Assembly (NCBI GenBank): GCA_028753945.1
Contig: JAPNXP010000007.1
Coordinates: forward strand, 2,356,001-2,420,000
Direction of reading: 5' to 3'
Length of the DNA stretch: 64,000 bases
DNA from: Hexactinellida sp. DTS-2022
Lineage: Eukaryota > Porifera > Hexactinellida
The position numbers and the translations under genes were made by a program. The notes beneath the pieces are model-generated. The model made no database searches. It had not been told where the DNA came from and saw only the letters and a list, made by a program, of their open reading frames with translations. Below are positions 31,516-56,746 of the stretch, piece after piece; the first letter of the stretch is position 1; the number at the start of each line of letters is the position of its first letter.

Positions 31516-31682
31516 CAAGGCGCATAAATATATAATTTTATCTCATAATAAATCTTCGGTCAGTTCAGTAGTGTATAAAAATCAAATTCAAATTACAGAC
31601 GATCGTGAAGCGGTTGTTCTATGGGTGATATTTGACGCGATGCGATACTTCAAGCGAAATCCGTTTGTAGCAATTACACATG

Positions 31683-32172
31683 AGGATTTCCATGTCAAAT
31701 CATCCAGCCATTTCACCAACTAAAATCGATTTCTCTCAAAGTCGGTTAGTTGAAAGCCCCAGTACAACCATTATATATGTGTAAGTTTTAGATTGTTTGG
31801 TCAAATTGTTGTTGAATTATTGCGAAAAATAATTATTTTAAAATTTATTAATTCGACTCATCTGTATAAACTCTTATAAAAATGCCAGTTTATACAATAT
31901 TGAGATTAAATTCACCAAAACGATAGTTTATAATATGCAGATTGCGTCAATCATATCAGCAATCGAATTTAAACACATTTTGTATCTCAACATTGGAATT
32001 GAAACTATGACGTGAAGTGAAATCGGAACTATGATATAGCATTTGAGGATATTTTGGGAACCAAACTTTTAAATTTTTCTAAATTGGCATTAATTAAGGA
32101 TGTTGCAATATCTCGAAAGTTTGATTTGGTTCCCCTGTATTCCCTTCCAGTTATTGTAAATTTTCGTCATTT
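31683..32172 (+). repeat. Left terminal inverted repeat of the 8.2-kb transposon
   Basis: Outermost shared sequence AGGATTTCCATGTCAAATC against AGGAATTCCATGTCAAATC (inverted) at the right. Best-matched blocks include TATATATGTGTAAGTTTTAG and CACCAAAACGATAGTTTATA. Differences are substitutions plus a ~20-bp gap and a ~20-bp local duplication. Similarity fades after a shared CGTCATTTT. Confidence 0.85.
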
Positions 32173-32236
32173 TTAACCAATTTCCAAGTTGTTTGGTAGC
32201 TGTTTATTTTGTTGGATTGGATATATATATCAATCA

Positions 32237-35200
32237 CACAGACTACGTTACTATAGACTATTCACTGAATTTACCATGGATTACTTCAAGTCTAGTTACT
32301 TAGATAAGTCAAATCTAAAATATACTCTCTAATATTTAATATCATGCTTTGTATAGTTTAATAACTTGAATGATAACGAAATGGTTGCATTCAACGATAT
32401 TACGAATACTTGAACGCATACAATTAACTAATAATAATAAAATACATACTATCGAATTCACTTTGACTGCAACTTTAGTAGCTTTTTATTCGATCTTGTA
32501 GGATTGTTTAGGCCACGTTTAGAATTCAAATTTCTTATTTTATTCTTCAATAAACAATTAGTAGTAGCAGAGAGAATTTGAGCCAGATAGTACATAAAAG
32601 GTTTCTGGCAGTCAGGACATTCATTTCTCCAGAATTCGAAACTAACAAATTCTATTCTAGATATCGCTAATTGAATTAAAACCTTTCTGTCTGATTCAGC
32701 AATGAATTGTCTCAACAAAGCTGGGTTCTGTTCAAGAATAGTAAGTATTTGCCATTGAATAGTAACTGCGCTTATTACATCATTGGATGGGTATTTAAGT
32801 CCACCCCGGTCAGCTAAGTGAATTAGTGTAAGATCGGACTCTTCACACTCGAGAGAGAAACATTCTAGTTCAGTGAGTAGAGATACACAATGATTACAAT
32901 ATGTAGTGAATTTAGACTTCTTTGAATAGAGCATATTCTTACAGATGTTGTGAACTGCATATCCACCAATAAAAGCCAATGCTTGGCGGATTTCCACTGT
33001 AGGTGAGAATTCAAAATTTTCATGTAGAAGAGAAGAATAAATGTTCAAGTCTGATTGGCGAACTCCAGCATCCTGTTGAACTGAAAAACCTCTAACGAAT
33101 TCCTTTAGTGACGACTCATATTTGCCATCTTGGGCTTGGTACAACTTCAGAATGTTACCAATCTTGATCCGTCGCTCGCTCTCAAGAACTTGACAAAAGG
33201 AAACGTTGTATTGGCAACCAGACATTAGCCGGTAAACACCAAAATGCTTCTCTAGAGAGTCGTTTTGTAAGAATCCGGTTAACACATAGGAAAATCCACA
33301 TTCATCGCTGGTCAAATGATTGATAATTTTAGGAATTACTTTAGTAGTGTGAATTAAGCTGGTAAAGGTCTGTGGGCTAAGTTTGCCGGCTTTTCCTGTA
33401 CAGCTATGTATTTTCCAATTCTCAAGCCAAGAACAAAATTTTGCAAGAAATTCAAAACGTTCATCTTGGTGTTTGAATACTTTGGAATCAGAATCACGTA
33501 GACGAATATCTTTACCAGGACAATGAATGTTGCACATCTTCCAAAATCTGGATATAAGATCGATAAATTGATGAGTCTGGTTGAAAATTTTGTTTCTCTG
33601 GTTGAATACAAAGATAGCGTTGTGTGTTGATTGATCCCAAACTGCTAGAGCTAAGGGTACACTTTGTCTCTCAAAGGTTGATGGCCAGACTACTTGTGAA
33701 GTTAACTTGTGGGCTGTCTTAGCATTTGAAAATTGCTCGAACTTGTACAAGTTCCTGATATCCTGGAAAGAAGCCGTTGCTAGTTGATAAGGAAAGGTAT
33801 TATTGAAATAATCAGTGATAGATGGGAAAATAAGCGTGGTAAGGGGATCTTTCTGATTTATCCAGTTATTCCTAATACATTTAACAATATGTACTGGATC
33901 GAACATCAAGAATATAGCTCGAGTGGGATCAGCTGGGTTCGGAAAACTAAACTGCAAGTTAGATGAATTAGCTAACGATTTGAATAAACTCACGTTCAAC
34001 TGGTAATCGTCAGTGCAGATTGCTATTACCTTTAGGCCACAACTTTCGATGTCTATAATTACTTGATTAATTACTGGAAGTAATTCAGAAGATTTAGCAT
34101 TACAACATGGAAGGAGTCTTACAATTTCGGACCATTTGGTGAAGAGACTTGAAATTTGAAAAGCCAAAACAGTTTTAGCTGGATCCAGGTCAGAAGATTG
34201 GCTGACAGACGTGATGGAATCGGAATTAATAAAAGGCGAACCAAAGATTCTTCCTCCCTTGTAGGTATACTTAGACTGTACGTGAATTTCATCAAGTTTT
34301 AAAATAACATGTCTTTTGAACTTAACAAAATTCTGGCACTCAACTTTCAAATAATCAACAAAATTTGTATCTAAACCAATGTTAGAATAGAGTCTTCTGA
34401 GTGTTGAAGGATGGGGTAAACTAAGACAATCCAATGATTGCAAATATCTGTAACAACCAGAAGATATCAATTGAGCTTTAAGGGAGAAGACTAATGTAAA
34501 GACGTTATAGCGACGTCTTGTTTTCGACATATCTAAGTTTTCGAGCTGACAGAGAATAAATTGCAAACGATTAAGTAAAGTTTGAGAATCATGTATTGTG
34601 GTATCTTCGTTAGTTGTTAACTTTCCTACTGTGTACTTAACACTATCGATAGCTTTGGTGATTCCTAACTCAATATCATCTGGCTTTTGATACGTGTCGA
34701 GTTCTTGTATTAATTGAGAAATTTGACGCATGTCAGTAATCTGAGAAATCCGTGTTGGAATTTGTACCCCGTTAAGAAAACATTTGACATTCAATTCTTC
34801 ATTTAATATTATCTGGTGAGACATTATTAGTAGATGTCCAGACAAGATTTTTTTGAAGATGTGCAGGGTAGTTGGACTAGAGCGAAAATATAACCATTCT
34901 TCATACAAGTTTAAAATTGTATATTTCTGTTGCATTTCATCAATGCTCATCACGGAGTACTTTTCATTCTCTGTTTGGTGTTCAGCAATACTCAACTGAA
35001 GCGCTTGACGAAAATGTCGGATATCTAATTCATCGCGGTCAAGACGTTCAGGAAGTACATTTTGATCTTGTAAGTAAGATGGGCAATTTGGTAGAATAGT
35101 AGGCTTAGCACCCTTGCGAAGACCAGGCTTACGGGGAAAATTCTTGATAGAACCATCGCCTTGAGGAATTGCAACAGAAAGTAACAGGTCCTGCTCACTA

Positions 35201-35609
35201 AAATGTTTAGCGCAGATGAAAATTCTGCACAATTGCCAGGCATCATCTCGATGTAAAAACTTTTTCCAATCATCTTGTACATCCTTTGGCCAGTGATGTA
35301 ACATCTCAAAAATAGGAGTGTATTCAGTACCATCATAATTAGAAGTGCAATTAGCAACACTACACCTGTTTGGCATGATTCTAGTATATATAAAAATGAA
35401 AGAAAAGATAAATAAAGAGTAGAAGCATAAAAGAGTAAGTGGTGTGGTAAATAGAAAGGCACAAAGAATGTGTAGAAAAGAGATTGATCTAGACTGAATG
35501 GTAGTAAACTTATATTCAAATATTGTGGGTGGTTTACAAAATAGACTTGAAGTAATCCATGGTAATGGAAAAATCAATCAGTGAATAGTCTATAGTAACG
35601 TAGTCGGTG
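32237..35609 (-). mobile_element. Complete-looking P-type DNA transposon
   Basis: Terminal inverted repeats of 32 bp with one difference (CACAGACTACGTTACTATAG... at 32237-32268, complement at 35578-35609). A second, subterminal inverted repeat of 22 bp (TACCATGGATTACTTCAAGT) lies at 32272-32293 and 35543-35564, comparable to the internal repeats P elements use for activity. tatcaatca is repeated directly outside both ends (32228-32236, 35610-35618), consistent with the 8-bp P-type duplication plus a chance base. One long transposase gene fills the minus strand. It is inserted between the left TIR and the gene of the 8.2-kb element. With no inactivating lesion visible, this is likely the youngest element in the window. 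Confidence 0.95.
32458..35376 (-). CDS. THAP-domain P-type transposase (THAP9-like), 972 aa, intact
   Basis: P-type transposases bind element ends with a THAP zinc finger and cut DNA with an RNase H-like core, using GTP. I chose the ATG at 35376, since the frame upstream has no ATG and this one opens the THAP domain. C5-x4-C10, C55-x2-H58 and the AKPTILP motif (~90-96) define THAP. A helical DNA-binding/coiled region follows to ~290. The catalytic core shows LDEIHVQ (D362), CTDDYQLN (D456/457, where the family often has TDG), MFDPVHIVKCIRN (D493) and NDSLEKHFGVYR (E709). The C-terminal part has AFIGGYAVHNIC, C827-x2-C830 and LADRGGLKYPS (~854-864). The length is close to human THAP9 (903 aa). 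TGA stop at 32458-32460. A TATATA run lies ~10-20 bp before the ATG; a spliced 5' exon within 35400-35577 is possible. Confidence 0.95.
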   Translation of the reverse strand: MPNRCSVANCTSNYDGTEYTPIFEMLHHWPKDVQDDWKKFLHRDDAWQLCRIFICAKHFSEQDLLLSVAIPQGDGSIKNFPRKPGLRKGAKPTILPNCPSYLQDQNVLPERLDRDELDIRHFRQALQLSIAEHQTENEKYSVMSIDEMQQKYTILNLYEEWLYFRSSPTTLHIFKKILSGHLLIMSHQIILNEELNVKCFLNGVQIPTRISQITDMRQISQLIQELDTYQKPDDIELGITKAIDSVKYTVGKLTTNEDTTIHDSQTLLNRLQFILCQLENLDMSKTRRRYNVFTLVFSLKAQLISSGCYRYLQSLDCLSLPHPSTLRRLYSNIGLDTNFVDYLKVECQNFVKFKRHVILKLDEIHVQSKYTYKGGRIFGSPFINSDSITSVSQSSDLDPAKTVLAFQISSLFTKWSEIVRLLPCCNAKSSELLPVINQVIIDIESCGLKVIAICTDDYQLNVSLFKSLANSSNLQFSFPNPADPTRAIFLMFDPVHIVKCIRNNWINQKDPLTTLIFPSITDYFNNTFPYQLATASFQDIRNLYKFEQFSNAKTAHKLTSQVVWPSTFERQSVPLALAVWDQSTHNAIFVFNQRNKIFNQTHQFIDLISRFWKMCNIHCPGKDIRLRDSDSKVFKHQDERFEFLAKFCSWLENWKIHSCTGKAGKLSPQTFTSLIHTTKVIPKIINHLTSDECGFSYVLTGFLQNDSLEKHFGVYRLMSGCQYNVSFCQVLESERRIKIGNILKLYQAQDGKYESSLKEFVRGFSVQQDAGVRQSDLNIYSSLLHENFEFSPTVEIRQALAFIGGYAVHNICKNMLYSKKSKFTTYCNHCVSLLTELECFSLECEESDLTLIHLADRGGLKYPSNDVISAVTIQWQILTILEQNPALLRQFIAESDRKVLIQLAISRIEFVSFEFWRNECPDCQKPFMYYLAQILSATTNCLLKNKIRNLNSKRGLNNPTRSNKKLLKLQSK

Positions 35610-35867
35610 TATCAATCAGTATATAATTTAATGACTCAACTAGACTACTGAAATCTACATTTGCAATGCTTACGCATTAATTTATATAAATATATATTGG
35701 CTTATAATACTTAGCCTCAGACATTCCTCATTATATATAGATGGTTGTTATACCTTGATTCACATTACTATAGTGAACTCTTCTTATATACTATACTATA
35801 CAAATTCTGTTGCAATTTCAAATTACAATCTACAATTCTCTTTACTGCAATACTTCGCTCTTGAATA

Positions 35868-38800
35868 ATGGCACTACAGTCCTGTTCAATCGGACGAATT
35901 GAAGAATCTGTGTGTCATAATTTAGTACATACCCATTGAAAAGTCGGGATATTTCCGACTTTAGATCTCTCAAAGGATGACTTCGAATTATTAGTTAGGA
36001 GAACAGGTATTCGTAAGAATAGTTTAAAAACTATTTGTCTCCATCATCAAAAGCAATACATCGACAAGTTTACTCTATTTAACCCTTATTGCTGTGATCC
36101 ATTGGAACATCACATTGAGTAGAAAAGTTACAAAGGTAATAAGTTTATTTGTATTCAAAGTATACAAACTAGACACATTTCATTCAAATTAATTTTAGGA
36201 AAAGTAATAATTACCAAAAGTAAGGGTCTAGACTTAGTATGCTTTGAGATTTCAATTGTCCCTCGGTGCAAAGTATGTTCGAGTTGTTCTTCTGAGCTAT
36301 CAGAAATACTAAGTGGAAAAATAGTACATAATCCCTCTAAAAAGACTATCAGTTCCCCTTTAGAATTAAAGATGTTACCTAACTTCATAAGCACTGATAT
36401 GCAAAGCCTACAGTCAACTCTAACTCAGGTATGTTTCTTTAAGATTTAAAAACTGTAAAATACAATCTGTAAGTGTTTATCATTTTAATCTCCAAGGATA
36501 TGTAAGAAGATGTAATTAGTGGACTGCCCAAATCCTACGAAATATCCCCAATTAGAACACATTGATCACATATTCAAGCTCGGAGAATACAGATTAAAGA
36601 AAAATTAGCAAGATTAGAGGTTGTACTAGTTGTACAACCTCTAAACTTTTACTACTCCCCAGAATTGAAGAATCTCGTGAAGAGGGTTGTACTACTCCCC
36701 AGGATTGAAGAATCTCGTGAATAGCTTATTGAATCTTCAACAGCCTTGAGTATCTCATTATCAGTTGAACAAAAAGCTGAACAGCATGATATAATAATGG
36801 CTTTAATTAGAGAGAAAATTTACCAATCCAATACTACACAAGAACAATTACACCTCCTTACCCTAGCGCCGCAAATTATCTCTCGTGAAACTCTGTCAGA
36901 ATTCTTCGGTGTTTCTGAACACTTAATTTGTGAGTCTCGCAAGGTATTCAAGAAGACAGGCATACTTGGAGAAATTGACTGTAAAACGGTACAGCTATTG
37001 TTAAGATAAAAATGATGTTTTAATTTTGCAGTTATTGATAAATTCTTTCTAAAAATAGGGAAAACATTACCTGATGAAACTATCAGAACGGTTGAGTGTT
37101 TTTACCAGGATGATGAAAACACACGGCAAATACCTGGTATGAAAGACTATGTTAGCATAGCACGTAACGTCCACGTGCAGAAAAGATTGATACTTTGAAT
37201 TTAAAAGAACTATATGCAGAGTTCAAAGAAAAGTACAAAGACTTAAAGCTTTATTTAGACTTATTATTTAATGATTATTGAATACTTTTGCAAATCCAAT
37301 GTGGGACAATCCTCGAATTTAATTGATCCAAGGTTTTGTCACCTTTTGGAGAAGAAATTATAAATATTTTCTTAGATATTAGAATTTTTTTCTAGATACA
37401 GTATTTCCACCCTCCCGCCAATTTTCAAGTCTGTAGGTCTTACCAGTTCCTAAATAAATTGTGAACAAAGAAACAAAGAAACAAACAAACAAACAAACAA
37501 ACAAATCATAGAGATTTGATAAATAGGATAATTAATGTATTATACAAATTTACAAATATATTTTTAGATATAATTTTCTAAGTTTTGCGAACCACGCCCA
37601 AAGTGGTGTGTACTTTCAGATTCATGTGGAACACATACTGTATTTATTTGCTCTATTCATCAAAATGCCATCCTCCTCGTAGATGCTCTTGATACCCATG
37701 ATAACTACAAAGAATAGTTTCTAAATTGGTATGTTCAGCTGATAATGCAAACTGTATGATTCATCAGTGTGAAAATTGTCCAGGGACCGAGAATCTCCGA
37801 AACTATCTCAAAACAATCACCAAGAATAGAAATGATCAGGTAATATATTAGTAATTAATATTTTAGTTACATGTACCATACAATTGCTGTTATTTGAACA
37901 TAAAATTTTAGTAATTTTGAATTCGTTATAGGTACAAGTTGAGTATCGTCAATGGGACAGTACTGATAAAACGAGTTTAGAGACCCATTCAGCTACCGTC
38001 AGCCCATATATCGAAGCATTAATCACGTTGATGAATAAACTGACCTCTCACTCATACATTTCACGAGCTCAAACTTCCTACTATAAAAAGCGAAAAGATC
38101 TGCTTGATAATCAATCTGCAATTGTTTTGCTTGACTTTGCTGAGAATTACTCATTTGTTATCCAAGATGAAATCCATGGATTTCATTGGAATAATATTCA
38201 AACAACTGTGCATCCGATCGTCATCTACTACCGGCAAGATGGTTAGTTAAATATTATTGTATAACAAAATATATATAAAGAAGTTAGCAATAAATTAGTC
38301 GCTTAAATTTAGGAATTCTCTGCAACCAATCATTTTGTTACATTTCTGATGAAACAGAGCATGATGTCATTATGGTTCACTTGATCCAACGATTGATCAC
38401 CCAGCATTAGAGATTCACGCTTCCACAAATTCGAAAACATGAGTACTTCAGTGAGGGTAGGCTGGTCAATATAAAAATAGGAAAATTTGTTTAATTTGTG
38501 CCAGCATATGAACGACTTTGGATTTGAAGGTATTTGGAACTTCTTCGCAACTTCGCACGGGAAATCACCATGCGACGGCATTGGTGGAACAGTGAAGAGA
38601 GTTACTGCAAGGGCAAGTCTACAAAGGACGAAGACAACCATATAATAACACCATTACAAATGTTTAACTTTTGGTCGTCAACTCCTAATCTTTCAACAAT
38701 TAAGTTCTTATCATACAAAAAAAACAAGGTAATCTTTTTTTATAAATGACATGTGATTTATTGTTCGATTATAAACCTAATTTATCTATAGATTCACTAA

Positions 38801-39199
38801 TATACAAACTATTCCAGGAACACGTAGCTTCCACCAATTTACTCCATTAAACGAAACAATGATTACACCCAAGAAAATAAGCGAACAAAGCGATAACAGT
38901 ATTGTATATAATTTCATGAAGAATCGGGAAGAATATTCAACAAAACCTCTTGAAATATCTTACCTAAATTAAGGTGCCTATATAGCCAGCATTTATGATA
39001 GTGACTGGTTTATTGGATTAGTTGAAGAAGTGTGCGAGGAAGAGGGTGACGTGAAGGTAAGTTTTCTGCATCCAAAGGGCCTGGAAGACCAGAAAATTAT
39101 TTCTTCTGGCCATCAGCAGAGGATATCTGTTATATTCCTCGAACAGACATCCTGTGTATTATAACAGCTTCAAAATTTCTTCACTTGATGCAGAATTAA
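35868..39199 (+). pseudogene. Transposase-like gene of the 8.2-kb transposon, multi-exon, decayed
   Basis: Exons inferred from AG/GT borders and protein continuity: 35868-36135, 36199-36428, ~36498-36988, 37059-~37225, 37568-37839, 37932-38241, 38313-38728 and 38818-39199. Landmarks in order: ICLHHQKQYIDKF; KVCSSCSSEL; ETLSEFFGVSEHL; KDYVSIARNVHVQKRLIL; EPRPKWCVLSDSCGTHTV; CENCPGTENLRNYL; IVLLDFAENYSFVIQDE; FHWNNIQTTVHPIVIYY; SFCYISDETEHD; FFATSHGKSPCDGIGGTVKR; and a C-terminal YDSDWFIGLVEEV ... SFLHPKGPGRPENYFFWPS. I know this architecture from many unnamed invertebrate proteins but not a named superfamily. The Asp residues in LLDFAEN and YISDETEHD are candidate catalytic acids (inference). 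Stops interrupt several exons (after LEHHIE, RLIL and NYKE, among others), a 40-bp tandem duplication sits at ~36650-36725, and a usual FSDG is FSEG here. Confidence 0.75.
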
Positions 39200-39409
39200 T
39201 TTCATTAAATATAGAATCTCGAGTATGTAAATACAATATTTTATAATTAGTGATGAGTAAATATGTGAATCTAGCTAAATAGAGTGAAATAACAACATTC
39301 TTGCCTAAGATTTAGAACATGAGAAACATCATTCCACCTAAACTAATTGAAAGAAGCGAATAAAGGAAAAAATTAGTATTTTCGAAGTTTTTCAAAATAT
39401 TTAAAGAGA

Positions 39410-39891
39410 GCAAAATGACGGAAATTTACAATAACTTGAAGGGAATACATGGGAAACAAATCAAACTTTCTAGATATTGCAACATCCATAATACCAATTT
39501 AGAAAAATTAAAAAAATGTGGTCCCCAAAATATCCCCAAATGCTATGTCATAGTTTCAGTTCCAATTTTGAGATACAAAATGTTTTTAAATTCGATTGCT
39601 GATATGATTGTAGCATTCTGCATATTATAAACTATCGTTTTGGTGAATTGAATCCCAATATTGTATAAACTGGCATTTTTATGAGAGTTTATACAGATCA
39701 GTTGAATTTTTAAAAATTTTAATAATTATTTTTGGCAAAAATTGGAAAATTTGTCTCGGAATAATTCAAGATCAACTTCACCAAACAATCTAAAACTTAC
39801 ACATATATAATTGTTGGACTGTGGCTTTCAGCTAACCCACTTTCAGAGAATCGATTTTTGTTGGTGAAATGGCCGGACGATTTGACATGGA
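39410..39891 (-). repeat. Right terminal inverted repeat of the 8.2-kb transposon
   Basis: Inverted partner of 31683-32172. It carries ~20 bp near 39740 that the left copy lacks, and lacks a short duplication present near 32015 in the left copy. The outer flank reads gacctcacag, with no clear duplication of the left flank acacatg. Confidence 0.85.
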
Positions 39892-40382
39892 ATTCCTGAC
39901 CTCACAGTTGTATAGATCAACTTTAGATTCTAAATTATCCAGAAAATCGTGCGAAACGACGCACGAATTATTTTGGTTATATATAATAAGTTGTCATCAA
40001 GCAAAGATTGCTCTTTACCGAATTTCTTTAAACGAATTCAATTATATACAAATGTTAATTTTACGACTGAAATAGACTACTTAATACACAGTGGCAACTC
40101 ACAGAAATCACACAAAAAAGAGAGGTCAGTTTATAATTTTCACTCGAGGGTATGAATTTATATTGAAAGTTGACAATTTCGACATAAATGGGGTAAAAGG
40201 ACATGATTAATCCATTAGGAGGGTTTTTGAGGTTCTCAGAGTTTCGGTTTAGGCGCCATTTATGATGACTTGGCAGTATTTAACATAAAATAAAATAGCA
40301 AATATTTGTTATTTTGATTTAACTCATATTTTCACATATTCACCATTTAGTTTTAACAAATTGCTTTCACGTGTATTAATAC
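39892..40382. other. No recognised feature
   Basis: AT-rich. Short overlapping open frames without a recognisable domain. Confidence 0.5.
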
Positions 40383-40847: not shown

Positions 40848-43800
40848 TGTTGAGACGCAGGCTCGGACTAAGATATTATAATAGAATAACCAAATTAAGA
40901 TACGGCTACAATAATACACAACACAAGCAATAGCTTTCCCTATAAATAAGTAAGTATAGTTGGTGAAATCTTAAGACGGCTAACACCATGGGTGGCACTA
41001 CACTTGGAGGTAACTATGTAAGTAACGCTGAGCCCTAACATCACTTCCCCTTCAAAAAGGTTCGCTGTTCGTCTCTCTGAACCGTAGCGGCTTCTTAATC
41101 ATCCTCCCATAACGGGAAATGCGTGGCGTTAATCCGGTTTGCTCTAAGCCAGATACTAGGGAACAAGGTCCACGCGCATCTAATTCCTCTGTCGCTTCAT
41201 CCCTATCGCACCCGTCTGATTCTCGCGGTCCGTTGGTGGGTAGAATGGGGCATTCTGAATTATTGTCTTCGCCCAGAGTCTGGGATTGCGTGATCGTTTG
41301 GAACGGGATGACCTTACAGCGGTCCAGGTGTACAATTCTCGTTTTGCCCCCTCCTACCTCGATTGTAACATTTGGAGGCTTGGCTGATACCACATTGAAA
41401 GGTCCGTTATATCTCGGATCGTGGCTGTCAGCCTTGGCATCGTTACGCAAGTAGACTTGATCGCCATTATTAACATTAGTTGCACCCAGTCTTCTATCGT
41501 ATGTTTGCTTCATGCTATCCCGATACCCTTCCAGACTTGTGCGTGCAGCCTCTATGGCCTGTTCGACATCACGGGAAACATTGTTGTACCACTCCTCAGG
41601 CGACCAATTTTGCTGCGCTTCTTCCTCTATGCATAGTCTGGCGTTGGGGACTGGGTCCACACCATGCATAATATGAAAAGGGGTATTTCTTGTACCTGCA
41701 TTCGGCAGGGTTTTCAGCGAATAAGCGACTTCTTGAAGGACAGAAGACCAACATTCTTTCTCCAGTCGGCGCTCGAAGAGGATACATCTTAAAGTCTGCT
41801 TTACCGACTGGATACTACGCTCGGCCTGTCCGTCGCCTTGCGGATGGTAAGGGAACGATCGAAATTTCTTACAACCTAGCGCATCCAGTACCTGCCTAAT
41901 CATAGTCCCATCCACATTCGGACCCTGATCGGAGATAAAAGCTTCGGGAGGTCCGTGCCTATAAATCCAGAATGTGTTGAGCGCGGTTAGGATGGAACTG
42001 GCAGTCTGGTCCCGCATGGGTGCGATTTCAACCCATTTAGAAAACAGGTCGGTCATTAGCAAGAAATACCGATGTTGTTCACTACCCATGGCAAGGTTGC
42101 TACGTCGAAAGCAACAATCTGACGGGGCTTGTGGGCGGATCGATTGGGTTCAAGAGGCTCGCCGGCCTACTTTTACCTCTCCCGCTGGCAAATACTACAT
42201 TTGCTACAGAACGTCCGAGTATCCTTATTCATTCCGTTCCACCTGAACTGCTGCTTCAGGAGGTAGAGAGTCCTCCTAGAGCCCGGGTGGGATCCATTGT
42301 GTATGGGCCTAAAGACTATCTACTGCAACCGATCTGGGACTAGAATTCGATTGCCGCGGGTTACCATATTATTCGCAATAAAGAGTTGATGATTGCGGTA
42401 GCGTCCGTATGAAATGAGACTCGATGCGTCCAACTGCTTGACTGCACAACTGATCGCCGGGTCGGTGCTTTGCGCCGCTCGAATTTCCTCCAAGAGGGAG
42501 AAACCGTCAGGTAAATTGTAAACGAATCTGTCGAAAAATTCGTACACGTCATTAACTCGTTCAGCGACTCTGCACTCAAGTCTCGAAAGAAAATCTGCCG
42601 CACTGTTGTTGATTCCCTTTACGTACCGAACTTCGTATAGAGATCTTCTAACTCTTGGAAAAGCGCGCAAACTTCGCTCACGGGTCGCGCCGCTTTCGCA
42701 GCCAACGCAGGGGATTGTGATCACTGAGAAAAATGGTCTTGCAGGCCGCCTGTAAGTAGTCCCGGAAGACCCCAGCGCTCTAACTCTCCAGCTGAATACT
42801 TTCGCTGAGCATGACTCAAGCCTGTAGAGTAGTAAGCCAAGGGACGTAATTTCTGATTCTCATCCAATTGGGAGAGTATACCTCCGACGGCCACGCGGGA
42901 AGCGTCGGTTTGGATGTAGAATGGGCTGTCCCAATCAGAATATGCGAGTAACACAGGGGCGTGTGAGGCTCGTTTTCAGGGCGTTAAATGTCTTATTACA
43001 CCCCGCATCCCAAACATAAGGTTCGCCCTTGCGTGTAAGCTTGTACATGGGTTCTGCTATAGTAGCCATACAGGGGATGTAGTCGCGATAAAAGTTCACA
43101 AGTCCCAGGAATCGCTGAAGTTCCAACTTGTCACGCGGCTGTTCGAATCCAGTAATATTTTCTACATTGCTTGAGAGAGGCTAGCGTCCGTCAGGGGTGA
43201 TCAAATGTCCTACAAATTCTGTGTGCTGATATCCTAGCCGAGTTTTGTCGGACGCAATTGGATTTTGGTATCCCGCAGCCGCATCAGTGCTTCGCGTACA
43301 CTGATAATATGAGACTCTAGCTCGGGAGAGTGAATCAGGATATCGTCCACATATAAATGGACTTGTCTCATTCCGCGTAGGATTGTCCATTAGCCTCTGA
43401 TAAGTGGCCTGGCTATTACAGAGGCCAAATTCTATTCGCGTCATCTCAAAATGCCCCCTTGGAGTGGAAAATGCAGTCTTTGGCTGGTCCCGACTAACAA
43501 TGGGGACAGCCCAGTATGCACTTGCGCAGTCAAGGGATGAATAGTAGACTGTCGAGTATATCTCGAGGATTGGGCATCGGGTAGGCGTCTTTTCGATTTA
43601 GGTCATTTAGACCCCTGTAGTCTACGACAAATCGAGTTCCTCCATCCTTCTTCCTGACAAGTATAATTGCGCTGCTCCAAGGGGAGTCGGACGGAAGGAA
43701 TATTCCGTTTTGTAACATCTCGGTCACTTGTTCATTTATCTTTGTCTGTGTGGCTAGGGATACACGTCTCTGCCTGTGTTTGACTACAGGTGGTTCCCCG

Positions 43801-51679: not shown

Positions 51680-54600
51680 TAGTCCAGTAATTTTATGGTT
51701 TGACCTTAAACAAATTGCAACACAAACTCTCTCAGCAGTTTCTTGTACAGAAAAATATGCTCTATAACATACAAAAAGTCCTAAGGAATCACTTGGGGGG
51801 AAAGCGCAAAAAGGTTTTCAAAAAATCACATTAATTTCGTGCATTTATAATTTTTCCTTTTTGCATTTTCTCTTCTCTATGAGCTTTTTCATGAACAGCT
51901 AACTCTGTTATAGTCAGGTATTTATTATTTTATATGACCTTTCATCTGACCTTTCATATTTGACCTCAATGCCTTGTGGTTAGTTTAAGTGTTGCAATGG
52001 AGGTATCAAAAGAGTGTGCTATCTGCAAGCAGCCAATTGGGGCATCACCAAAAGCTACCCTGGGTGAAAAAGGAAGTACAAGCATCAACAAGGCAAGTAA
52101 GGAAAGGAATGACACTGTACATTGTACACCTGTGCAGCAGGTACACCAAGAATGTCGTCGTAACTATTGTAAACCAGATCAAATAGCCAAAACTCTTAGA
52201 TTAAAAGTACAAGGTATAGCCACAAATACTGGAAAGCAAGTGCTCAGGTCAGCAGAAAGGCAATTTAATTTTAGCACTGACTGCTTTTTTTGTGGCAAAC
52301 CAGCAACATTAGGAAGAAAGAGAAAAAGTTCAGATGTTGTTCTTGTCAGGACGGTTGAAACAAGGGACACAATTCTGGAAGTTTGTTGTGAAAAGGGTGA
52401 TGATTGGGCAAATGCTGTGCAAGCGAGAATTTTACATGTTCACGATCTGCATGCTGTAGATGCAGTATATCATAGAGCGTGCAGATCAATTTTCGTACTA
52501 TGAAGCAGATACCAGCAGTTCATGAGCATGAAGTGAACCCATCCAAAAAAGTGCAACTGGGTCGACCACAAGAGAAACAAAGGACAGATGCATTCCTCGA
52601 AGTTGCCAGATTCCTTGAAGAGAATGATGATGAACAGATTACCATTCATGACCTGATTCAACGTATGGAGGAAAATCTGGCTGACATGGAACACAGAGCT
52701 TATAGCTATCCACATATGCAACAAATGCTCAAGGAACATTTTGGAGATAAGATTATTCAGACTGAGATCAATGGTAAGCTTAATGTTGTAACTTTTAGAA
52801 ACAATGCGAAGGAAGTGCTCTACGACTTTTACAATAATCGTGATCTTGATCATGAGAAAGACAAAATGAGGATAATAGAAACTGCTGCCAAGTTGATCAA
52901 GGATGACATTAAAGCAGTGAACACATCTCACTGCAACTATCCAGGTTTTGATGAACTGGGGTCTGAAGAGTGCATCAACTTCTTACCTGAATCTTTGAGA
53001 GTACTGCTTGCAGGTCTGATTGTGGGAAAGGAAGTGCAGACAAAAATTGCCTCAATTGGACAGGCAGTAATGCAGGCTGCTCGGCCAAGAGTTTTATTGG
53101 CACCACTTCAGGTTGGTTTGGGTGTGCAACTGCATCACCATTACACATCGCGTTTTTTAATCGATACATTACACAAACATGGTTTCTGTTGCTCCTACAA
53201 CGAAGTTCACCAATTTGAACAAAATGCTGTATTGAGTTATGAAACCGACATTCCCAACTACTCATCACAGTTTGTCCAGTATGTTGCAGATAATGTTGAT
53301 CACAACATCAAAACCCTGGATGGAAATGATACCTTCCATGGCATGGGGATGATAGCTGCCATAACCCCTGGAACAAAGAAAAACAACCGAATTCTTCGAG
53401 TAAAAGTCACACCCAGGGACATAGCAAGTATTGGAAGAGTCCCAATCCGATACCACAGAGAAGAAAGTCTTGGTATGGCTATGGTGACATATGAAAAGTT
53501 ACACAGCTTCAAAGCTAAGGATCCTATAGCCCATCTGGATGTCCTTTGGAAGAGTTCAATCATGTTTGGGTCACCGAGGCCAGCATGGTCTGGAATGATG
53601 CAACTTGTACATCGTGGCAGACACCCTGGTAAATCAGCCGTGATTTTTCTCCCAATGATAGACATGAACCCCAGTGACATCACGTGTGTATACTCCACAC
53701 TGAAGTACATTCAAGAGCATGCACACCGCCATGATGTCACACCAATCATCACCTTTGACCAGCCACTCTGGTGGAAGGCTTTGAAGAATATTGTCACTGA
53801 GCCAGTCGGAAGTGATTTGAGAAGTATAGTTCTTCGCCTGGGAGGTTTCCACACTGAAATGAGTTTTCTTGGGTGCATTGGTCACCTCATGGCTGCATCT
53901 GGTTTGCATGAATTGTTCGAATTGACCTATGCATCTAATGCAGTAGTACACATGCTCAGTGGCAAAGCTATTGCTCGACAGTGCGAGGGCATTTCATTGT
54001 CGATGCAGCACTCAATGCCCTGATTCTAGCAAGCACATTCAATGTGCCCCTACCTGGAGTTTCGGATGTGGCAAATGAAGAAACAGAAGAAGTCATGGTA
54101 ACCGAACAAACACATGAAGAATCTGCTGTAAAGACTGACCTAGAAGAAGCTGCTGTCCTCTATGAGAAGCTGATGCAGGATTCAGTGTCTGCAGATCACG
54201 TTTGCCAGGATAATATAATAACCAAGATTAATGATACCGTTCAAGCAAAAAAGGAATATATGAAATCTTCTAGGACTGCTACAATGTGGTTGCAGTACAT
54301 GGACATGGTTGATATTCTTCGCAAATATATCCGAGCAGAGCGTACGGGCAACTGGGAATTGCATCTCCAAGCTGTTTCGGAAATGCTTCCTTACTTGGCA
54401 GCTTCTGGCCACAACAACTACACAAAGTCTGCATTGATATACCTACAGCGAATGTCTCATCTTCAGAGTGATCATCCAGAGGTATACCAACACTTCCAAG
54501 ATGGTCTCCATGTGATCAGAAGGAGTGATCGTTATTGGGCAGGCCTCTCTTCAGATCTTATCATTGAGCAGGTGCTGATGAGAACCATGAAGACAAGTGG

Positions 54601-56746
54601 TGGCCTCACAAGGGGACGAGGCATGAGTGAGCAACAACGACTGATTTGGTTATTATCAATGCCAGCATGTGCAGAAGTGAATGGAGCAATGCAAGAGCTA
54701 ACTGGTGTATCCTACAACTCAGGGGAGCAGAATAAGGACATGACACAGGCTAGGCAAGCTCGTGATTGGAAGGATACACAGACACTTCTGAGCTACCTCC
54801 AAGAGAGGAACCCCTTTACTTCTGATCCCAGTCTACGAAACATTTGTACTGGAGTGCATGCACACAGCACCGTTAATGCTGACACAGCAAAGGATGATGG
54901 TAATGCCATTCTGGCTAGCATGGAAGGTATTACAGCTGCAGACTACACTTTCAAGAGGATTGATCAGGTTGTCACACTAGACACCAAGTCTGCAGTGAAA
55001 ATTGATGGTGTTACAGTGCAGATAGACCCTCAACTCCTTTTCCAGAGACTGACACTAGCTGCAAAAGCAACCAACACCATTGAGGACATATTCAAATATG
55101 AGCTCTGCAGTTATCCACCAGCACTCTTTGATTCATCGCTGTTGCTTAGAGAGCCACAGAAGCCAGTGCTGGCTAATGCCATTTGGGACATTTTGACACA
55201 AGATATTCCAGGAATATCTGGGGAGGTCCAGTTTGTGCTAGACGGTGGTTCCCTCCTCCAGCGCATCCCATGGACGCGAGGGGCCACTTATAGGGATATA
55301 TGTACAGTGTACACAGATTACGTGGCAAAGAAGTATGGGGAAGCAATTGTTATTTTTGATGGCTACAGTGAATCATCAACGAAGGACATGGTACATCAAA
55401 GACGAGCCAAAGGGCAAGCTGGGGTAACTGTCACGTTCACTGAGGATATGAAACTCACCATGAAGAAAGTGACTTTTCTAGCAAACAGTACCAACAAGCA
55501 ACAGTTTATCAACATGCTTGGCAGCTACCTAGAGAAGAAATGCAAAGTGTACCATGCTCCAGGAGATGCAGACCAACTCATTGTACAGAAAGCAGTGGAA
55601 TCAGCCACAATGGTGAACACTGCATTGGTTGGTGACGATACAGATCTTCTCACTTTGCTGTGTTACCATGCCACTTTGGATTCCCACAACATATTTTTTC
55701 GACCAGAGCCAAAGAAAAATAGCATAAAGCCCAGAGTGTGGAACATCAAGGCTGTCAAGGAGCAACTAGGCCCTGAAATATGCAGCAACATCCTCTTTCT
55801 ACATGCAGTCCTTGGCTGTGATACTACTTCACACCTGTATGGCATTGGAAAGGGCACTTCTCTCAAGAAGTTCAAATCAAGTAGGCACTTTAGAGAACAA
55901 GCCAAGGTGTTTGCTACAGAGTCAGCTACGCCCAAGGCTATCTCTGCTGCAGGAGAGCAAGCATTGGTAAGTGTGTATAATGGGACACCTGGGGAATCGC
56001 TAGACTCTCTGCGCTATAAACGTTTCTACGAAAAAGTGGCTACGAATACTTCCTGCTTCATCCAAAAACTCTACCACCCACTTCAGCTGCTGCAAATTAC
56101 CATAGTCTCCGTGTATACTTCCAAAATCAGGAGTGGAAAGGTTGTGGTGATGAAATTCAACCACTGGAATGGGGATGGAAAAAGAGCGAAGGAAAACTTA
56201 TGCCAGTACTCACTCACTTGCCACCAGCTCCAGATGAGCTCCTGAAAATAATCAGATGTAACTGCCACACTGACTGTAGCAGTATGAGATGCACATGCAA
56301 GAAACACAATGTAAAATGCTCTCCTGCATGTGGCAACTGCAGAGGATCAGGTTGCACAAACTCAGACAATCTTATACATGAGGATGAAGAAGACGATTTA
56401 GATGAAAATACTGAATAATTGCTATTTTTATCACATATCTCACTCTTTTAGATGAAAAATATTAACTAATTCATTACATATTGAAAGTGTTTTCACTATT
56501 ACTTCCTAATTATTATAGTAGACATTTTTAATCCCCAAAATCTCATTTTGTATCATACAAAAAGGGCCAAATTTGGCTAACATTCCATTCGGGTGAGGTC
56601 AATTTCCTATACTTTCCCCTCATAGGATTCCTTAGGACTTTTAGTATGTTATAAAGCACATTTTTCTGTACCAGAAACAGTTGAGAGAGTTTGTGTTGCA
56701 ATTTGTTTAAGGTTGACCCCCTAATTCTCATAAAATGACTGGACTA
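51680..56746 (+). mobile_element. Academ-type DNA transposon, nearly intact
   Basis: Terminal inverted repeats of 111 bp (51680-51790) and 121 bp (56626-56746) differ by a small indel and roughly eight substitutions. The outermost bases are TAGTCCAGT / ACTGGACTA. aaa lies on each outer side, compatible with the 3-4-bp duplication of Academ elements. Between the repeats is one long plus-strand gene (51997-56418). Size 5.07 kb. The protein family (XPG-like nuclease plus Cys-rich C-terminus) is the basis of the Academ call. Confidence 0.82.
51997..56418 (+). pseudogene. Academ-type transposase with XPG-like nuclease, three frameshifts
   Basis: The ATG at 51997 is chosen because earlier in-frame starts are non-ATG. 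N-terminal zinc-ribbon-like CAICKQPIG and CFFCGKPA, with later CCEKGDDWANAV, lie before ~52500. The central region follows, with GLGVQLHHHYTSRFLIDTL near 53120 and PIITFDQPLWWKAL near 53735. The XPG/PIN-like nuclease lies at ~55340-55860: IVIFDGYSESSTKD, YHAPGDADQLIVQ, ALVGDDTDLLTLL and VLGCDTTSHLYGIGKG carry the acidic residues. The C-terminus is CXC-like: CNCHTDCSSMRCTCKKHNV. The reading frame changes at ~52485, ~53980 and ~56065, each explained by one missing or extra base (the last in an A run). Frames are otherwise open over ~1470 codons, so decay is recent. Stop at 56416-56418. Confidence 0.85.

Follow-up and report, generated by a model that had tools for sequence, protein, structure and literature searches.

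A decayed long-arm DNA transposon of a glass sponge and the widespread animal gene family that very probably encodes its transposase

Many proteins listed as "uncharacterized" in animal databases belong to no Pfam family of their own, and we present evidence that one such set is likely to consist of transposases. The subject is an element in a 64,000-nucleotide stretch of the hexactinellid sponge Hexactinellida sp. DTS-2022 (assembly GCA_028753945.1, contig JAPNXP010000007.1, positions 2,356,001 to 2,420,000, forward strand), hereafter the window. Positions 31682-39898 of the window are a decayed, dead copy of an autonomous DNA transposon. We consider it very probable that the element is a terminal inverted repeat (TIR) transposon and that the protein of its single spliced gene is its own transposase. 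Movement of the element is shown by near-intact sister copies, by its repeated insertion with the same boundaries, by 4-bp target duplications and by empty sites. The gene is present in each two-ended copy and is under purifying selection between families. We infer that the protein is the catalyst, and, given the kind of enzyme, we assume cut-and-paste rather than copy-and-paste movement. The association of long inverted repeats with one spliced gene, and the proposal that the gene's family supplies the transposase of long-TIR elements, come from an earlier note made on the window's letters, and both agree with what the genome holds: arms of about 490 bp, nine exon blocks, the gene in 12/12 two-ended copies, perfect 4-bp duplications in 7/12, empty sites in 3/3 insertions tested, and a predicted RNase H-like core whose three Asp residues are kept in 64/64 aligned homologues.

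Copies, ends and target sites

Aligned with each other, the arms (31683-32173 and 39412-39897) fill 515 columns, 53 of them with gaps, at 81% identity, and pieces of them reach 80-93%. Alignment with sister copies, the means by which the earlier note had proposed to fix the ends, places each end one base further out, at 31682 and 39898. The parts of the element other than its gene are as follows.

31678..31681, no strand: left target-site flank ACAT, with 1 mismatch in 4 bases against the right flank (flank comparison)
31682..32173, +: left TIR, outer base the G of GAGG (arm alignment, sister copies)
32237..35609, -: P-type (THAP) transposon nested in the element, which it interrupts and to which it is foreign (inverted ends, Pfam, copies)
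39412..39898, -: right TIR (arm alignment, sister copies)
39899..39902, no strand: right target-site flank ACCT (flank comparison)

In the genome searched (112.4 Mb in 18 contigs), the left arm of the window has at least 42 matching places (the best 40 of 49 candidates were scored). We fetched 20 arm-match regions, leaving out six weaker places on contigs C12, C6, C9, C1, C14 and C18. Nine two-ended copies besides the window were found, with ends starting GAGGAATTCCATGTC or a near variant. The two arms of a copy are 96.8-99.7% identical in L009-L012, L014, L023 and L024 and 86% identical in L013, and those of L016 match in pieces only. L010 and L011, which lie on different contigs, show 99.9% identity over 5.15 kb; where L012 aligns to L011, the two are 98.9% identical. 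The family therefore moved recently, and such near-identity makes recent activity testable. The gene is nearly open in these three copies, each of which shows a single visible defect in the form of either an insertion or a frame break. It is worth noting that L023 and L024 form a second subfamily, whose arms, aligned over 985 and 978 bases and 99.6-99.7% identical, are about twice as long as those of the first. Across the family the arms range from about 490 to 985 bp and the elements from 3.1 to 6.4 kb, with 8.2 kb in the window including the P insert and 5.7 kb, from coordinates, in L031/L035.

Target duplications were scored in 12 two-ended copies, ten including the window and two (L030/L034 and L031/L035) from the diverged families described below. 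A perfect 4-bp duplication flanks seven of the 12 (ACAG, CTTG, CTTT, GGTA, TATT, GATG and, in L031/L035, GGGT); the seven show no consistent sequence, and perfect duplications of 2, 3 or 5-10 bp flank none of the 12. When the register was shifted as a control, 4-mers matched at a rate of 0.7%, with a maximum of 2/12. Of the five copies with imperfect flanks, three (the window, L014 and L024) show one mismatch in the 4-mer, L013 shows three, and L030/L034, which lacks a target duplication, shows two. L024 was left out of the perfect count for three extra bases on its right flank; by eye, its left flank contains an uninterrupted duplicate of the target.

Empty sites were sought by fusing the flanks of L011, L012 and L031/L035 through a single 4-mer and searching the genome with the product. 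With each fusion 40 or 41 matches were scored, almost all of them spanning the join, and nine sister sites (three per copy) align without gaps across the join for about 30 bases per side. Empty sister sites were thus found for all three insertions tested. Sister sites have the exact 4-mer for L012 and for L031/L035, and have TTTT in place of CTTT for L011. The empty sites therefore fix the ends of the element and the length of the duplication independently. The insertions L011 and L031/L035 sit in short repeats (1514 and 1942 first-look candidates, 40 scored each), which are probably miniature inverted-repeat transposable elements (MITEs) or short interspersed elements.

A segmental duplication or assembly artefact flanking an ordinary gene might be suspected from the window, where the arms are no more than 81% alike and one of the four target bases mismatches. 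The recurrence of these ends at many sites on many contigs, together with the 4-bp duplications and the empty sites, make this explanation extremely improbable.

The family extends beyond these copies. With the 3' part of the gene (37900-39200) as a query, further relatives were found, mostly at 67-76% DNA identity, and five loci of such diverged families were fetched. Their ends read GGGGAATTCC.. in L029, L030 (with L034) and L033, and GTGGAATTCTT.. in L031 (with L035, two-ended) and L032; the elements of the family begin G(A/G/T)GGAATTC, a start that the outer ends of the diverged families share. A 36-base end motif has 16 matches in 18 loci at no more than 11 mismatches and none in 20 single-base shuffles per locus, so that the shared ends are beyond chance. 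At the level of aligned codons, purifying selection between families is shown by ratios of nonsynonymous to synonymous substitution (dN/dS) of 0.04-0.12 in exon 8, with dS near saturation (ten copies, stop codons passed over). Within families the computable values are 0.46-1.40, with a value of 0 for the pair L031/L032, and two pairs that lack synonymous changes have no defined ratio. Selection between transposition events, with decay afterwards, is the pattern expected of a transposase.

The gene and its predicted transposase

A gene model built from L010 and L011 has nine exons and encodes 868 aa. In the window the gene lies between the arms on the + strand as nine exon-like blocks spanning 35868 to 39231, which have 49-94% identity to the matching exons of one near-intact sister element. 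Blocks 1, 3, 4, 8 and 9 contain stops, and the frame is broken in blocks 6, 8 and 9, and the window copy is therefore dead; its FFATSHGK/CDGIGG block is in a different frame from the start of its own exon.

35868..36134, +: exon block 1, N-terminal Cys/His region, two stops (exon comparison)
36198..36428, +: exon block 2 (exon comparison)
36497..36619, +: exon block 3, two stops (exon comparison)
36695..36985, +: exon block 4, helix-turn-helix-like region, one stop (exon comparison, model, Pfam)
37040..37195, +: exon block 5 (exon comparison)
37577..37839, +: exon block 6, Cys-rich region, frame break (exon comparison)
37932..38240, +: exon block 7, predicted first catalytic Asp in LLDFAEN (exon comparison, alignment)
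38315..38722, +: exon block 8, FSDGCAGQYKN stretch (second Asp) destroyed, CDGIGG (third) out of frame
38802..39231, +: exon block 9, predicted C-terminal Tudor/SH3-like barrel, one stop, frame breaks

The motifs picked out in the earlier note (LLDFAENYSF, ISD-x4-HD, FFATSHGK...CDGIGGTVKR and WFIG...FLHP) all belong to the family. Protein searches gave 614, 298 (best 7995 candidates scored) and 149 homologues at E <= 0.001, with 120 listed each. Named homologues among the matches listed come from Hydra vulgaris, Penaeus indicus, Araneus ventricosus, Homalodisca vitripennis, Nymphon striatum, Brassicogethes aeneus, Amphiura filiformis, Antedon mediterranea and Rotaria magnacalcarata, and from two vertebrates, the fish Brienomyrus brachyistius and the frog Anomaloglossus baeobatrachus. 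The earlier note described the family as unnamed, high-copy and invertebrate; it is unnamed or misnamed in databases, has hundreds of homologues, and reaches fish and frog as well. Its database labels are "uncharacterized", "hypothetical", "unnamed" or apparently wrong names; P0143, P0158 and P0167 carry two such likely misannotations, "ARL14 effector protein" in Nymphon and "Cc8L18.2-like" in Araneus. Neither "Cc8L18.2" (the label of the spider homologue P0167) nor the family's motif strings occur in the papers searched, and none of the titles and abstracts listed describes the family. If these proteins are transposases, they could be removed from gene counts, and annotators now have for the family its ends, its duplication length and a predicted active site. 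We infer that mobility is the reason why such genes are many and orphaned.

Sequence models say little about the protein. Pfam gave for it Lipoprotein_21 at E 0.19 only, below the cut-off, and no family model; six homologues had sub-threshold Pfam matches only, except HTH_23 at the cut-off in P0203, and four homologues matched no NCBIfam model. A PDB sequence search with one protein found no relative, and a profile search of PDB gave only weak matches, to the ZAD of Serendipity delta (E 0.11), the Tudor domain of PHF19 (E 0.59-0.9) and a designed coiled coil. The ZAD alignment covers profile positions 82-131, N-terminal, around PGxKLCxxC. With the whole predicted model, Foldseek found nothing in PDB at E <= 0.001 (the top matches were Argonaute, RNase H1, a terminase nuclease and unrelated proteins) and, among viral models, an uninformative 2/971 at that threshold. 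With two conserved patterns, which distant relatives could escape, 29 stretches in prokaryotic contigs and 87 in viral contigs matched, and none was confirmed as a relative.

Three Asp residues, in LxDFAEN, FSDGCAGQYKN and CDGIGG (D497, D581 and D622), are kept in all 64 aligned homologues, and the predicted model places them as in the RNase H-like cores of integrase and mariner. In this predicted model the protein thus has the core and acidic triad of DDE/D transposases and integrases. The earlier note expected such a core to hold the Asp residues of LLDFAEN and ISD; the predicted core and the LLDFAEN residue bear this out, and the second Asp lies instead in FSDGCAGQYKN. ISD was rejected for this role: D581 directly follows a core strand and is kept in 64/64.

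The domains suggest how transposition may proceed. The N-terminal Cys/His and helix-turn-helix-like regions probably bind the arms, and the RNase H-like core with its D-D-D triad would cut the DNA and join it to the target. Cuts staggered by four bases, a stagger seen in the duplications, would yield the 4-bp duplication, and the C-terminal Tudor/SH3-like barrel may contact DNA or chromatin. This barrel may resemble the Tudor domain of PHF19 (PHF1/PHF19/MTF2 type), with aromatic cage positions that appear to be retained. Chromodomains are thought to guide some retrotransposon integrases to marked chromatin. By analogy, the barrel might be a built-in reader of a methylated histone tail that steers insertion, the lineage perhaps being a superfamily of its own; we regard this as rather unlikely. 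The analogy for such a reader is with PHF19 and H3K36me3, and a DDD transposase with a possible reader domain puts chromatin-guided insertion within reach of a test.

Could the gene instead be host or passenger cargo of a TIR transposon moved by another transposase? The Tudor-like barrel and the Cys-rich regions are dispensable for catalysis, and the transposase activity is a prediction. The earlier note had named arm copies that never carry the gene as evidence that would overturn its proposal. That is not what the genome holds, as a clear gene match is present in 14 of the 20 arm-fetched loci and a weak one in L019; yet the other five (L018, L020, L021, L022 and L026) have no gene remnant, which counts against identifying the gene as the transposase. 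On the other side, no other long gene was recognised in the 5.15-kb copy L011, the gene is found in every two-ended copy, it persists across families at 67-76% DNA identity, and for its product an integrase-like core that holds the three conserved Asp is predicted. Cargo is thus very unlikely, and the element's own transposase remains our reading.

Comparison with known superfamilies

The earlier note left the superfamily unassigned, which is probably wrong, as the features fit published Sola elements. With moderate confidence we place the element in Sola, likening it by published description and not by sequence, and it is most likely a new member of the Sola-type elements, its subgroup left undecided. 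Sola elements have a DDD transposase, 4-bp duplications, lengths of mostly 2-9 kb and TIRs of 11-1124 bp (PMC10741241). The 4-bp duplications here agree with this, as do the three Asp at predicted RNase H positions, and TIR and element lengths fall within the Sola ranges. By contrast, the Tudor-like domain goes unmentioned in the portions of the Sola descriptions consulted. No Sola-named model matched the gene's protein. Some Sola elements have G-R-G termini.

Amoebal Sola2 has an 888-aa transposase, similar in size to the one here (about 860 aa), with TIRs of 12-21 bp and AT-rich AWWT targets (PMC3627910). Neither the targets nor the short TIRs are matched here, which speaks against the Sola assignment, and the element is therefore not filed as Sola2. 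MITEs of Sola2 origin are reported from wasp bracovirus segments (PMC7822920); we rejected them as support for a Sola2 label as too indirect.

A separate, undescribed D-D-D superfamily with 4-bp duplications and long arms is a possible but less likely home for the element. Consistent with it are the absence of any substantial match to Pfam, NCBIfam or PDB sequences, the seven duplications unlike AWWT, and the lack of confirmed prokaryotic or viral relatives, though Sola reportedly occurs in bacteria (PMC10741241). Against it stands the match to the Sola description in triad, duplication, TIR length and element size. Sola elements are also reported from bivalves, a braconid wasp and an ostracod. 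The Sola subgroups were reportedly found by Bao et al. in 2009 to diverge strongly in sequence and target.

Other superfamilies fit less well than Sola. Retroviral integrase and mariner/Sleeping Beauty share the predicted RNase H-like core with the acidic triad in the same order, whereas no sequence match was found and the third acid here is Asp. Integrases likewise have a C-terminal SH3-like domain. The Tc1/mariner duplication is TA (PMC10741241). Kolobok has a DDD/E transposase and a 4-bp duplication and occurs in animals (PMC9587614), but it duplicates TTAA, which is none of the seven duplications here, and membership of Kolobok or piggyBac was rejected on this count. P superfamily membership was also rejected: THAP and TNP-like_RNaseH_N are found in the nested insert and neither in the gene of the long-arm element.

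The nested P-type transposon and neighbouring frames

As the earlier note had seen, a P insert lies inside the element. It is 3.37 kb long, lies left of the gene and is bounded by inverted ends of 33 bp; its open frame of 1039 aa matches TNP-like_RNaseH_N and THAP in Pfam. Three full-length copies elsewhere (C16, C12 and C11) are 100% identical after rounding and others 97-98%, and the genome also holds a second subfamily at about 70%. To judge from these identities, the P family is recently active.

Elsewhere in the window, a retrotransposon-type integrase frame (Pfam rve) lies at 41052-42149 (-), beside a further frame without a Pfam match at 42320-42859. Three long adjacent or overlapping frames of 179, 515 and 768 aa at 51964-56245 (+) have no Pfam match at E <= 0.01. 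By eye the 768-aa frame bears motifs reminiscent of FEN1/XPG-type nucleases, and the three may represent another unnamed repeated gene.
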